From the NCBI RefSeq assembly GCF_000181515.1, contig NZ_ABCG01000003.1, positions 186,001 to 250,000 on the forward strand: a stretch of DNA of 64,000 nucleotides. The letters are read 5' to 3'. The stretch is from Erythrobacter sp. SD-21 (GTDB lineage: Bacteria; Pseudomonadota; Alphaproteobacteria; Sphingomonadales; Sphingomonadaceae). The notes beneath the pieces are model-generated. The model was not told where the DNA came from, did no database searches, and saw only the letters and a program-made list of their open reading frames with translations. The translations under genes and the position numbers were made by a program. Each line of letters starts with the position of its first letter. The stretch's first letter is position 1. This document shows positions 33,378 through 37,317 of the stretch, piece after piece.

Positions 33378-34262
33378 TCAAATGCGCGACAGGATAGCCT
33401 TTGCGAGGCGTTTGCCCAGCCTTGGACCCTGTTCGGGATAGAGGTAAGGCTCGATCGCCTCGGCCTCCATCACCGCCAGTTCGCCCGAAGGCAGGCGCGC
33501 CATGTCAATGCGGCAATAGAGCAAATCGTCGAAGGGCAGGGCCGCCACCACGGCCTCTGCCTGCGCGAGGTCTTGGGGCGAGGGCGTATAGTCGAACTCG
33601 CTGCCGCCATAGAGCGACTGGATCCGGTATTCGCCTTCGGCCGCGCGTTTGAGAACGCCGTGGCTGAAAGCGCCATCGATGAAGACGAAGGTGTATTCGC
33701 CTTCCTCCATCACGCTCGGTAGGAAAGGCTGGATCATGCAGGGTTGCCCCATGCGCCAGCCGGTTTCGGGCAACGCGTCACGGGCAAAGCTGTGCTGGCC
33801 GAGCCCGCCGGCACCGACCTGCCGTTTGACTACGACGCGGTCCCTTTCGAAGGCATCGAGCGCGATGGCCACATCGCTACGGGTCGCGTCGTCGAACCAC
33901 AGTGTCGGGATCGTCGGGAGACCGTGGTCGGCCAGCGACTTGAGATAGCGCTTGTCCCCATTCCAGCGGACGACTTCGGGCGGATTGCAGACCGAAATGC
34001 CTGCTTCGCTCAAGGCTTCCAGCTTTGCGAGGAATTCGGGCAGGTGGTCCTGGTAGTCCCATGCGGTCCCCAGCAAGACCAGCCCAAGCCCGTCGAAGGC
34101 TTCAAACGGCGCGCGCCAGTCGATCTCGACCAGCTCCAGCCCCGCCGCTTCGAAGGCCGGACGCAGCGCGCCGACCTCGATGTCGTGCTCGAACGCGTCT
34201 CCCCGGCGCGGTCCTTCGCCGGGGAGCGTGTCCTTGCAAGCCAGAAAGCCTATGCGGTTCAG
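33378..34262 (-). CDS. ATP-grasp family enzyme with a non-ATG start
   Basis: The first ATG (34076) would remove a clearly conserved N-terminus. Reading upstream in frame gives NRIGFLACKDTLPGEG and continues without stop to a CTG at 34262. That CTG overlaps the TGA of the preceding gene and has GGAGG just upstream, so I use it (294 residues). The body shows ATP-grasp features: VVVKRQVGAGGLGQHSF, CMIQPFLPSVMEEGEYTFVF, and CRIDMARLPSGELAVMEAEAIEP near the end. Homologues resemble RimK/glutathione-synthase-type ligases. The substrate is unknown; the gene follows a Cys/Met enzyme in one unit. Confidence 0.75.
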   Translation of the reverse strand: MNRIGFLACKDTLPGEGPRRGDAFEHDIEVGALRPAFEAAGLELVEIDWRAPFEAFDGLGLVLLGTAWDYQDHLPEFLAKLEALSEAGISVCNPPEVVRWNGDKRYLKSLADHGLPTIPTLWFDDATRSDVAIALDAFERDRVVVKRQVGAGGLGQHSFARDALPETGWRMGQPCMIQPFLPSVMEEGEYTFVFIDGAFSHGVLKRAAEGEYRIQSLYGGSEFDYTPSPQDLAQAEAVVAALPFDDLLYCRIDMARLPSGELAVMEAEAIEPYLYPEQGPRLGKRLAKAILSRI

Positions 34263-35572
34263 ACCGCCTCCAGCGCCTGCTCGAAGTCGGCGATGAGGTC
34301 GTCCGCGTCTTCAATGCCGATCGAGATGCGCACGAGATTGTCCGAAATGCCCAGTTCCGCGCGGCGACCTTCGGCGACCGAGAGGTGGGTCATCGAGGCG
34401 GGGTGGCTGGCAAGCGTCTCGGTCCCGCCGAGGCTGACGGCCAGCTTGGCGATCTTCAGCGCGTCGAGGAAGCGGAAGCACTCCGCCTCGCCGCCCTTCA
34501 GCAGCAGCGAGAAGGTGGAGCCGGCGCCGAGGCAGTGACGGTCGTAGATGTCCTGCTGGCGTGCGTCCTTGATCATGCCGAGATAGCCGAGGCCTTCGAC
34601 CTTCGGGTGCTTGGCAAGGAAGTCGCAGACCTTGGTCGCGTTCTCGCCCGCGCGCTGCATGCGCAGTTCGACGGTTTCGAGGCTGCGGCAGAGCATCCAC
34701 GCCGTGTTCGGATCGCAGATACCGCCCATGGTGTTGCGCAGCATGCGGATGGCGTCGATGAAGCGCTTCTTGCCCGAGACGCTGCCCGCCACGAGGTCCG
34801 AGTGGCCGCCGACATACTTGGTCAGCGAGTAGACCACGAGGTCCGCGCCATGGTCGAGCGGGCGCTGCCACAGGGGGCCGAGGAAGGTGTTGTCGATCGC
34901 GATCGAGCACTTGTCGGGATCGAAGTGGGCGTCGCGCGCGGCCTTGACCGCTTCGATATCGACCAGCGCGTTGGTCGGGTTGCCCGGGCTTTCGAGGTAG
35001 ATCATCGGCACTTCGCCGCCCTTCTCCTCGGCCAGGGCCTTGGCCTTCACCATGACCTCGTCCAGCTGTTCGCGCGTTGCGCCGGCGGGGAAGTCGATAA
35101 AGCTCACACCGTATTTCGCCATGGTCTTGGCGATGAAGCCTTCCGAAGCGGCGTAGAGCGGACCGGAATGGACGATCACGTCACCCGCCTTGCAGGCCGC
35201 CAGCAGCAGCACGGCAATCGCGGTCATGCCGCTGGAGAAGGAGAGCGCTTCTTCCGCGCCGTCCCACACGGCGAGGCGATCTTCGAGGATCTCCTGGTTT
35301 GGCGCGTTGAAGCGCGAATAGACGAGGCCGTCCGCGCCGCCCGGACGCTTGCCGGTGATGCCTTCGAAGTGGCGCTTGCCGTCGGCGGCGCTGGGGAAAG
35401 CGAAGGTCGAGGTGAGGAAGATCGGGGCCTTGAGGCTGCCTTCCGAAAGGGTGGGGTCGAAGCCGTGACCCATCATCAGCGTGCTGGGTTTCAGCGGACG
35501 GCCGTTGATCTTGGTCACTTCGCGCTTGGGGGCCATGCGCGGGCTGGTGGGGTCGACGTCGGTATCGCTCAT
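34259..35572 (-). CDS. Cys/Met metabolism PLP-dependent enzyme
   Basis: The ATG at 35572 gives a 437-residue protein. It carries the family pattern: YSRFNAPNQEILEDRLA, GMTAIAVLL, IDNTFLGPLWQRPL, and the PLP lysine in YSLTKYVGGHSD. The family includes cystathionine gamma-synthase, methionine gamma-lyase and O-succinylhomoserine sulfhydrylase; sequence alone does not separate them here. The leader folds into a candidate pseudoknot that covers the ribosome-binding site. The end overlaps the ATP-grasp gene. Confidence 0.9.
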   Translation of the reverse strand: MSDTDVDPTSPRMAPKREVTKINGRPLKPSTLMMGHGFDPTLSEGSLKAPIFLTSTFAFPSAADGKRHFEGITGKRPGGADGLVYSRFNAPNQEILEDRLAVWDGAEEALSFSSGMTAIAVLLLAACKAGDVIVHSGPLYAASEGFIAKTMAKYGVSFIDFPAGATREQLDEVMVKAKALAEEKGGEVPMIYLESPGNPTNALVDIEAVKAARDAHFDPDKCSIAIDNTFLGPLWQRPLDHGADLVVYSLTKYVGGHSDLVAGSVSGKKRFIDAIRMLRNTMGGICDPNTAWMLCRSLETVELRMQRAGENATKVCDFLAKHPKVEGLGYLGMIKDARQQDIYDRHCLGAGSTFSLLLKGGEAECFRFLDALKIAKLAVSLGGTETLASHPASMTHLSVAEGRRAELGISDNLVRISIGIEDADDLIADFEQALEAV

Positions 35573-35583
35573 GAGGAGAGCAT

Positions 35584-35665
35584 CCTTCCTGCAAGTCCGC
35601 TCCCAGGAAGGCGGGAGCCAGTTGTTCCGCGCCCGGGGCACCCGTTCCTAACCTCCGCAGGAACG
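35584..35665 (-). promoter_or_regulatory. Candidate leader RNA: hairpin plus H-type pseudoknot over the Shine-Dalgarno
   Basis: On the minus strand a 7-bp hairpin (CGTTCCT / AGGAACG, 35665-35643) is followed by GCTCCC (35618-35613) pairing with GGGAGC (35604-35599). The loop CCTTCCT (35611-35605) is perfectly complementary to AGGAAGG (35590-35584), which is the likely Shine-Dalgarno of the Cys/Met enzyme gene. This gives a compact pseudoknot with one-base and eight-base loops. The geometry is that of translational riboswitches such as SAM-II, but the conserved bases of that class are not recognised. Confidence 0.5.
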
Positions 35666-35886
35666 CCTCTCCACCGGCTCGCTGTTTGCAAGCGCTCCAT
35701 ATGTTGGACGCGAGTTGGTTTCAACTGCGACGATCCCCACAGGATGGAGCGCATGGAGCACGGTCCTGGAGAAAGAAACCCATCGGTTCGATGCGGACGC
35801 GGATCGGGGCGAAGAGCGAGGAGGGCGGGCGTGTCCATGGCGCCCTCAGTAGCGCGGAAGGGCAGAGGTAGGAAAATGCAGCGCGT
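35666..35886. other. Intergenic region between the SLC13 gene and the Cys/Met leader
   Basis: This part holds the likely promoter region of the Cys/Met gene and the downstream end of nothing else recognisable. I see no clear gene, repeat or terminator. Together with the leader, the gap between the two genes is 314 bases. Confidence 0.4.
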
Positions 35887-37317
35887 CTAGACCAGCGCGC
35901 CCATGCCCCAGACCACCAAGACGATCAGGAAGATGCCCACAAGGTCGAGTAGCAGCCCGGCCTTCACCATGCGCTCGATCCGGATGCGGCCTGTCGCCCA
36001 GGCGATGGCGTTGGGGCCAGTGCCGGCGGGCAGCATGAAGCCCCAGCTGGCAGCGAGCGCGGCGGGCATGGCCAGCAGCACGGGATCGACGCCCAGCGCC
36101 ACAACCAACGCGGCGACCACCGGGATGATGGCGCTGGCGGTCGCGACATTGCTCGCGAACTCGGTGATGAGCACCACCATCGCCACCACGGCCAGCGCAA
36201 CGAGGAACAGCGGCCATGCCTCCAGCGGCAGCAGCGCGTTGCCGAGCCACTCGGCCAGCCCGCTCGCGCCCATTCCCGCCGCCAGCGCCAGCCCGCCGCC
36301 GAACATCATGATCACGCCCCAGGGCGCGCGGTCGGCTTCCTTCCACACCAGCAGCGGGCGACCCGTGCCGTCGGGTAGCAGGAACAGCGTAAGGCTGGCG
36401 AGGATCGCGATGGTCCCGTCCGTCCACGATCCTTCGGGGAGATAGGGCGCCACCAGCAGGCGCGTCATCCAGGCGAGGAAAGTGACGCCGACGACGAGTA
36501 TGAGGCGGCGCTCGGGCGTGCCCATCGGCCTCTCGTCGACAATCGCAGCGCGCGCGGCCTCGACATCGAAGGGGTGCGCCGCGACGCGCTGGACCCGTGC
36601 GATGAGGAAGGCGGCGAGCGGCACGCCGACAATCACGATGGGCAGGCCGTAAAGCGTCCATTCGGCAAAACTGATCTTTGTCCCGATCATCGTGTCGAGC
36701 AGGCCGACCGCAATCGCGTTGGTGGGCGAACCGACCAGCGTGCCGAGCCCGCCGATGCTGGCGGCAAAGGCAATGCCCATGGGCAGGGCTCCGGCGAGGC
36801 CCTCTGTCCGGCCTACCGCCGCGCTGCTTGAGACCGGGGTCATTTCTCCGCCCGCCAGCACCGCCAGCGCCATCGGCATCATGATGAGCGCGGTCGAAGT
36901 GTTGGAGATCAGCATCGACAGGATCGCGGCGGCAATCATGAAGGCGAGCAGCAGCCCCGTCTGCCCGCCGCGCCCGTGTAGCGCGTTGAGGATCGCCAGC
37001 GCGAGCCGCTTGTGCAGGCCGGTGCGCTCGATGGCGAGCGCGATGAAAGCCCCGCCGAGAAGCAGGAAAAGGATCGGCGAATAATAGGCGCTCGCCGTGG
37101 CCCTCGCGTCCATCACCCCCGCGAAGGGCAGCACGAGGAAGGGCATGAGCGCGGTCGCCGTCAGCGGCAGGGCCTCGGTCATCCACCAGGCGGCCATCAG
37201 CACGACCAGCCCGGCAACGATCAGCGCCTCGCGGTTCATTCCTGCAGGCGTGGGCGCGATGATGGAAAGCGCAAGCGCGATTGCGCCCGTCACCAGTCCG
37301 ATGCGTTTTGCGACCAT
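35887..37317 (-). CDS. SLC13/DASS family anion:sodium symporter
   Basis: The protein has 476 residues and about 11-12 transmembrane helices. SLC13/DASS features include SNTSTALIMMPMALAVL (the first SNT motif), GGLGTLVGSPTNAIAVG and ITEFASNVATASAIIPV (a second repeat). Members carry dicarboxylates, sulfate or phosphate with sodium. The gene ends 12 bases before a stretch of non-coding DNA and is not obviously in an operon. Confidence 0.92.
   Translation of the reverse strand: MVAKRIGLVTGAIALALSIIAPTPAGMNREALIVAGLVVLMAAWWMTEALPLTATALMPFLVLPFAGVMDARATASAYYSPILFLLLGGAFIALAIERTGLHKRLALAILNALHGRGGQTGLLLAFMIAAAILSMLISNTSTALIMMPMALAVLAGGEMTPVSSSAAVGRTEGLAGALPMGIAFAASIGGLGTLVGSPTNAIAVGLLDTMIGTKISFAEWTLYGLPIVIVGVPLAAFLIARVQRVAAHPFDVEAARAAIVDERPMGTPERRLILVVGVTFLAWMTRLLVAPYLPEGSWTDGTIAILASLTLFLLPDGTGRPLLVWKEADRAPWGVIMMFGGGLALAAGMGASGLAEWLGNALLPLEAWPLFLVALAVVAMVVLITEFASNVATASAIIPVVAALVVALGVDPVLLAMPAALAASWGFMLPAGTGPNAIAWATGRIRIERMVKAGLLLDLVGIFLIVLVVWGMGALV

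Follow-up and report, generated by a model that had tools for sequence, protein, structure and literature searches.

A conserved leader RNA, possibly a translational riboswitch, precedes a cystathionine gamma-synthase family gene in Sphingomonadaceae

In Erythrobacter sp. SD-21, a gene of the PRK07049-type cystathionine gamma-synthase family is preceded by a leader RNA of about 110 nt, encoded on the minus strand of the 64,000-nucleotide stretch of DNA analyzed here (henceforth termed the window), in which a helix P1 encloses a second helix P2 and is followed by a hairpin P3. That this is a real, covarying and gene-bound leader RNA without an Rfam entry is nearly certain, and its assignment as a translational cis-regulatory RNA is well supported. 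Sequestration of the Shine-Dalgarno (SD) sequence is probably its output, and the chances that it acts as a metabolite riboswitch appear about even. The leader would represent an Rfam-unlisted cis-regulatory RNA, possibly a riboswitch class, in the sulfur amino-acid metabolism of a large environmental family, and the alignment, the strand evidence and the link to a single gene allow ligand and mutant tests to be designed directly.

The features of the leader are collected in Table 1. The original prediction, made from the letters of the window, described a stem GCTCCC/GGGAGC with its loop, a one-base and an eight-base connector, and the SD; all are present as described on the minus strand, as is a separate 7-bp hairpin further upstream, CGTTCCT/AGGAACG at 35665-35643 with the 9-nt loop GCGGAGGTT. 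Not included in that description are the helix P1 around P2, the high degree to which the P2 loop is conserved and, slightly upstream, a promoter-like pair of boxes, which would place the transcription start near 35689, immediately 5' of P1. The gene, whose ATG start codon lies at 35572-35570 of the minus strand, was expected to belong to Cys/Met metabolism, and its equivalog match (Table 1) agrees; solved relatives of its product are Cys/Met PLP enzymes, methionine gamma-lyases among them.

Table 1. Features of the leader RNA and its downstream gene, in window coordinates
Feature	Position	Strand	Basis
Putative -35 box TTGAAA	35719..35724	-	TTGA..N16-18..TA spacing pattern
Putative -10 box TATGGA	35696..35701	-	Same promoter-like pair
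P1 5' arm GCCGG-T-GG, T bulged	35671..35678	-	Covariation
P2 5' arm CGTTCCT	35659..35665	-	Covariation, alignment
P2 loop GCGGAGGTT, 9 nt	35650..35658	-	SD-like; complementary to P3 loop
P2 3' arm AGGAACG	35643..35649	-	Covariation, alignment
P1 3' arm, CC then CCGGG	35632..35638	-	A1 alignment
P3 5' arm GCTCCC	35613..35618	-	Covariation, alignment
P3 loop G-CCTTCCT (anti-SD)	35605..35612	-	One-base G at 35612, CCTTCCT 35611-35605
P3 3' arm GGGAGC	35599..35604	-	Covariation, alignment
Connecting loop L3, 8 nt	35591..35598	-	Partner search 3' of P3
Shine-Dalgarno AGGAAGG, possible pseudoknot partner of P3 loop	35584..35590	-	Complementarity
PRK07049-type cystathionine gamma-synthase family gene	34259..35572	-	NF005455/PRK07049 equivalog, 665.5 bits, cut-off 504

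For most counts we used a set of 148 distinct leaders, which omits nine REP-like matches (L183-L191), a duplicate of the window (L071) and 13 of the 30 loci L102-L131. Since 59 of the 148 (about 40%) come from one genus, these counts are not independent. The P1-P2 5' domain is the best-conserved part of the leader, and its loop is nearly invariant: GCGGAGGTT is found in 142 of the 148. Loci L072-L101 were chosen because they match the P2 core exactly and are thus no evidence for invariance of the loop; a fairer measure is its presence in 58 of 59 distinct leaders anchored on the gene and in 46 of 51 detected by the model. In three leaders of genus g45 the loop is shortened to TGGAGGT with GGAGG retained. 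The P3 loop reads CCTTCCT in 137 leaders, CCTCCCT in nine and CCTGCCT in two, one of which (L148) is a parsing error, and the distance from the P2 loop to the P3 loop ranges from 33 to 66 nt. The promoter-like pair TTGA..N16-18..TA.... occurs in 113 of the 148 leaders (57 of the 89 outside the genus of the window), compared to a mean of 1.6 and a maximum of 7 in 200 mononucleotide shuffles, and ends 10-40 nt 5' of the end of the GGAGA stretch. By inspection, the element of L150 and L170 starts where a preceding reading frame apparently ends.

The helices are established by covariation. In A1, an alignment of 67 of the 89 distinct leaders found, 94.2% of cells pair, against 91.0% in shuffles and 38-62% after sliding, and two-sided changes occur in 11 of 27 pairs, against 6.1 in shuffles. 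Compensatory changes are present in P1, P2 and P3. The P1 helix pairs in 79.9% of A1 cells; its columns 17-52 and 18-51 vary as GC/CG/UA/AU (18-51 as GC, CG and UA), and its outer pairs covary, though more loosely. Consensus folding alone did not recover the outer part of P1. We further scored 2346 column pairs of 116 leaders against 60 column-independent simulations along a FastTree phylogeny of the gene's protein; L148, whose loop was parsed one unit early, was left out here and in the partner-spacing counts below but kept in the loop-SD count. Covariation is evident in both hairpin stems: the six highest of the 2346 scores all fall on predicted P2/P3 pairs. These six show 14, 10, 12, 5, 5 and 6 same-branch double changes, with E-values of 0.00, 0.05, 0.08, 1.88, 2.22 and 3.48; three pairs are thus convincing on their own, and the others gain support from all six ranking at the top. 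A tree built from the RNA itself put the identical six pairs on top. P1 falls largely outside this tree-based test because its 3' arm shifts in position. The sense strand is visible in the inner six pairs of P2 and of P3: across the 148 leaders, the non-Watson-Crick cells of these pairs comprise 80 G-U against 6 A-C, an excess that is expected if the minus-strand transcript folds.

The element is associated with one gene. When this gene served as anchor, all 60 genomes of the genus, the window included (L001-L060), showed P2 (core within 4 substitutions) and P3 in front of it. An exact 19-base core is present as a single copy in 58 of 396 genomes of the order, from 16 of 84 genera. R1, a covariance model built from 67 leaders, matches 148 of 397 Sphingomonadaceae genomes at E<=0.01; at 36 bits or more it matches 126 of the 397 in 37 genera, 36 of them besides that of the window, with a single such match per genome. 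A gapped pattern retrieved at least 119 stretches in named genomes, with Erythrobacter, Qipengyuania, Novosphingobium, Altererythrobacter, Citromicrobium, Tsuneonella, Blastomonas, Parasphingopyxis and Sphingorhabdus among the matches listed. In a search of the class, R1 matched 3 of 385 genomes, all Sphingomonadaceae and none outside the family, and the leaders of ten order-level homologues of the gene (L061-L070, 51-54% identical overall) lack the element. The gene lies directly downstream on the same strand at 30 of 30 pattern loci (L072-L101), at 32 of 32 further loci (L102-L131, L331, L332) and at 51 of 51 R1 loci of 36-91 bits (L132-L182), and within 900 nt on the same strand at 118 of 119 named records, the 119th of which ends 131 nt past the motif; all these sets overlap in genomes. 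The 51 R1 loci are the higher-scoring part of 60 R1 matches fetched; the other nine, at 32 bits or less, do not precede the gene and are REP-like. One genome (G435) carries the element with no match to the gene, at 285 bases from a contig end.

The gene itself is more widely distributed. A homologue at E<=0.001 was present in 99 of 99 genomes in a first search, and at E<=1e-100 the gene is found in 159 of 199 family genomes, representing 82 genera. The element occurs in 66 of these 159 genomes (34 genera) and is missing from 93; 48 genera have the gene only. Among all 93 gene-bearing genomes without the element, R1 gave no match of 36 bits or more, the best (30.5) lying in the range of the REP-like false matches. 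Divergent forms of the element were considered for such genomes and rejected, as a search with filters off of 20 leaders from element-less genomes and the ten order-level homologues yielded at best 9.8 bits. In the window, the gene is flanked on its own strand by a DASS-family sodium-coupled anion symporter on the 5' side (35890-37317, minus strand) and by an ATP-grasp-like protein on the 3' side (33378-34076, minus strand) with weak similarity to the D-cycloserine synthetase DcsG (110.9 bits against a cut-off of 360). The symporter protein cluster recurs in 15 of 21 compared neighbourhoods, where by inspection it precedes the gene and shares its strand.

A link to translation is suggested by the P3 loop, which in the window leader is complementary to the SD, as originally noted (CCTTCCT to AGGAAGG). 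Most leaders share this complementarity: the P3 loop and the 22 nt before the start can pair over at least 6 bp in 128 of the 148 leaders, compared to 24 of the 137 control ORFs (122 and 11, respectively, with Watson-Crick pairs only). The control ORFs were picked mechanically, from the first ATG among the opening 40 codons, and some of them are false. The start codons of L080, L096, L149, L162 and L177 are probably misplaced, and these leaders were scored as failures. Shorter runs in the remaining 20 leaders include seven of the ten fetched leaders of genus g53, with 3-4 bp. Among the 60 loci of the window's genus, the SD partner is weak in L034, L041, L043, L044 and L057; L041, L043 and L044, which have CCTCCCT loops, have a run of 3 bp. 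A partner of at least 6 bp lies within 100 nt 3' of P3 in 132 of 147 leaders, separated by a connector of 6-10 nt in 115 of the 132, in a search that takes the best match per 100 nt and has no chance control. In ten leaders the best partner is 39-53 nt away and still comprises 7 bases counting G-U; visual inspection identifies this partner as the SD (AGGGAGG or AGGAGGG). An extra 40-50 nt or so between P3 and the SD is seen in L080, L149, L157, L162, L168, L172, L176, L177, L179 and L180, which retain 7 bases (with G-U) complementary to the P3 loop, with an apparent further hairpin before the SD in L157, L168 and L172.

Of the predicted pseudoknot over the SD, the complementarity stands; against it are the 20 of 148 leaders with fewer than 6 bp and a helix in which 97.4% of A1 cells pair but zero pairs are changed on both sides. 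In the minimum-energy fold of the window leader, CCTTCCTG pairs with CAGGAAGG as a plain hairpin that replaces P3. The SD would be covered either way, by plain hairpin or pseudoknot, without P3 and the pseudoknot having to be present together.

We propose that the leader is a translational riboswitch composed of a P1-P2 domain and a P3-SD pseudoknot, a proposal that as a whole we consider as probable as its negation. The transcript would begin at P1, from the promoter just 5' of it, and P1-P2 would fold into a 5' domain that displays the nearly invariant loop GCGGAGGTT. P3 would follow, and its loop CCTTCCT would pair with the SD as an H-type pseudoknot with a 6-bp stem and connecting loops of 1 nt and about 8 nt, which would turn translation initiation off. 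The 5' domain would set how often the P3 loop is free for the SD, most likely by sensing a metabolite of the Cys/Met pathway, for which SAM/SAH is only one candidate. With such sensing, the leader would belong to a class of riboswitch, acting on translation, that Rfam does not list. Several points count against the proposal: one gene per genome offers little clue to the ligand, the P1/P2 internal loop varies on its 3' side by inspection, unlike most aptamers, and 93 of the 159 gene-bearing genomes (48 of 82 genera) lack the element. Other modes of action were rejected. A leader peptide translated from the SD-like P2 loop would require a suitably spaced start codon, and none is conserved on inspection of the 148-leader alignment. 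The short ORF ATG CTC TCC TCA TGA right after the window SD has zero spacing from that SD. Transcription attenuation found no backing, as no T run 3' of P3 was apparent by eye in the leaders read.

The nine weak R1 matches (L183-L191) raise the question of origin. They are inverted palindrome pairs such as CTCCTGCGAAGGCAGGAG...CTCCTGCCTTCGCAGGAG, with typical loops GCGAAGGC and GCCTTCGC, and the pairs recur with starts about 53 nt apart. Such REP-like pairs (CTCCTGCGAAGGCAGGAG and relatives) are abundant in several sphingomonad genera (genomes G610, G439, G494 and G131), with 120 matches to the core in G439 and 96 in G610. As in sphingomonad REP/REPIN pairs, two inverted hairpins of similar stem and loop are spaced by about 50 nt in the leader. 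Unlike these pairs, the leader is single-copy, gene-bound and equipped with P1, and its loops read GCGGAGGTT and GCCTTCCT. In the window genome, P2 gives one match, an exact one, with up to 3 mismatches allowed, and a reversed control pattern also gives one. The similarity in stem, loop and spacing was judged by inspection, and the R1 matches are weak ones; as a hypothesis, the leader may have descended from a REP-like pair. Under an extended version, an ancient REPIN-like pair captured 5' of the gene would have become a new class of translational switch, in which the inherited pairing between the loops competes with the SD for the same seven bases and a 5' domain displaying a decoy SD senses a Cys/Met metabolite or the 30S subunit; we consider this version tentative and on balance doubtful. 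The likeness to REP pairs presents a testable case of a repeat turned regulator.

A competition between loops may also operate with no metabolite aptamer at all. The P2 loop is itself SD-like and complementary to the P3 loop, which suggests a two-state competition in which GGAGG of the P2 loop and the SD contend for the P3 loop, set by RNA folding, by the 30S subunit at the P2 loop as a standby or decoy site, or by temperature. We regard this as fairly unlikely, although several observations accord with it. In all but two of the 148 leaders, the P3 loop retains CTTCC or CCTCC, either of which can pair with GGAGG over five bases if G-U is allowed; one of the two exceptions (L148) is a parsing error. 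The three g45 leaders keep GGAGG in their shortened loop. Isolated-duplex energies, which disregard loop constraints, are -9.5 kcal/mol for the P3 loop with the SD and -6.7 with the P2 loop; the CCTCCCT variant reverses this order by weakening SD pairing to -5.0 (with AGGAAGG) or -5.9 kcal/mol and strengthening P2-loop pairing to -8.7. The 16S tail pairs better with the P2 loop (-10.7 kcal/mol) than with the real SD (-6.5). However, GGAGG is invariant in the set, so that no covariation can be demonstrated, and some of the leaders in it were chosen for matching the P2 core exactly.

An exposed loop that hardly varies, on a stem that covaries, is as compatible with binding by a protein or an sRNA as with an aptamer. 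A trans factor, either an RNA-binding protein or an anti-SD sRNA, could act on the P2 loop or P3, with the RNA sensing no small molecule, which we judge unlikely. Also in its favor, 6 of 20 element-less leaders (L335, L336, L338, L339, L344 and L354) instead carry a GGTT-N8-AACC inverted repeat that abuts the start codon, such as GGTTACACTCGCAACC and GGTTACCACTGTAACC, as though the role of the RNA had passed to a DNA-binding repressor; L343 has a similar inverted repeat further upstream of the start. That the element is a REP-like palindromic repeat acting at the DNA level or as an mRNA stabilizer, with no specific regulation, would account for the nine REP-like R1 matches and the genome with 120 core matches but is very improbable given its single copy per genome at one gene, a G-U bias that favors the sense strand, a placement fixed relative to promoter and SD, and a window genome with zero REP core matches at up to 2 mismatches.

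Returning to the proposed riboswitch, our literature search found no paper that describes the leader by title or abstract. Main-text passages of PMC11109978 mention neither 'cystathionine' nor 'sphingo', and those of PMC8632094 have no 'cystathionine' and one 'sphingo' mention, a Sphingomonas odc1 construct. Table 1 of PMC4239095 lists SahR regulons in seven of seven Sphingomonadales and none of its RNA motifs there. A scan of the whole window with Rfam 15 returned tRNA only, and cmscan of the leader (window 35500-35900) against Rfam gave nothing up to an E-value of 10. At E<=1, the leaders of 12 divergent loci were likewise unmatched, with two chance-level matches elsewhere in L168 and L176. 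Membership in an Rfam family is thus rejected. These thresholds apply equally to SAM-II (RF00521) and the SAM/SAH riboswitch (RF01727), neither of which matched the window leader or the 12 loci, in line with the original remark that the conserved bases of SAM-II are not seen and that the leader may be a distinct class. RF00521 also had no match in 13 genomes of the genus searched. In an order-level relative (G064), an RF00521 match of 71.7 bits, above the Rfam cut-off, lies at C1:2530094-2530173, shortly before a different Cys/Met enzyme gene at 2530329 that is 37% identical to that of the window.

Among known systems, SAM-II (SAM_alpha) is alphaproteobacterial, small and pseudoknotted, lies 5' of Met-pathway genes and acts by SD occlusion. 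The leader differs from it in its additional P1-P2 domain. PreQ1-I and other H-type translational riboswitches are compact, the SD forming one strand of their second stem; here the leader is without an Rfam match and its gene is unrelated to queuosine. The SAM/SAH riboswitch forms an H-type pseudoknot that includes the SD; in the leader, by comparison, the first loop of the P3 unit is 1 nt long, and P3 is preceded by a second domain that is better conserved. Small H-type knots of the SAM/SAH kind are not known to have a separate 5' domain such as P1-P2. Of the originally proposed layout of this kind, the loop-SD complementarity is supported; the P1-P2 domain with its nearly invariant loop sets the leader apart. 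As is general for translational riboswitches, the leader is a conserved structured RNA in front of a biosynthetic gene.
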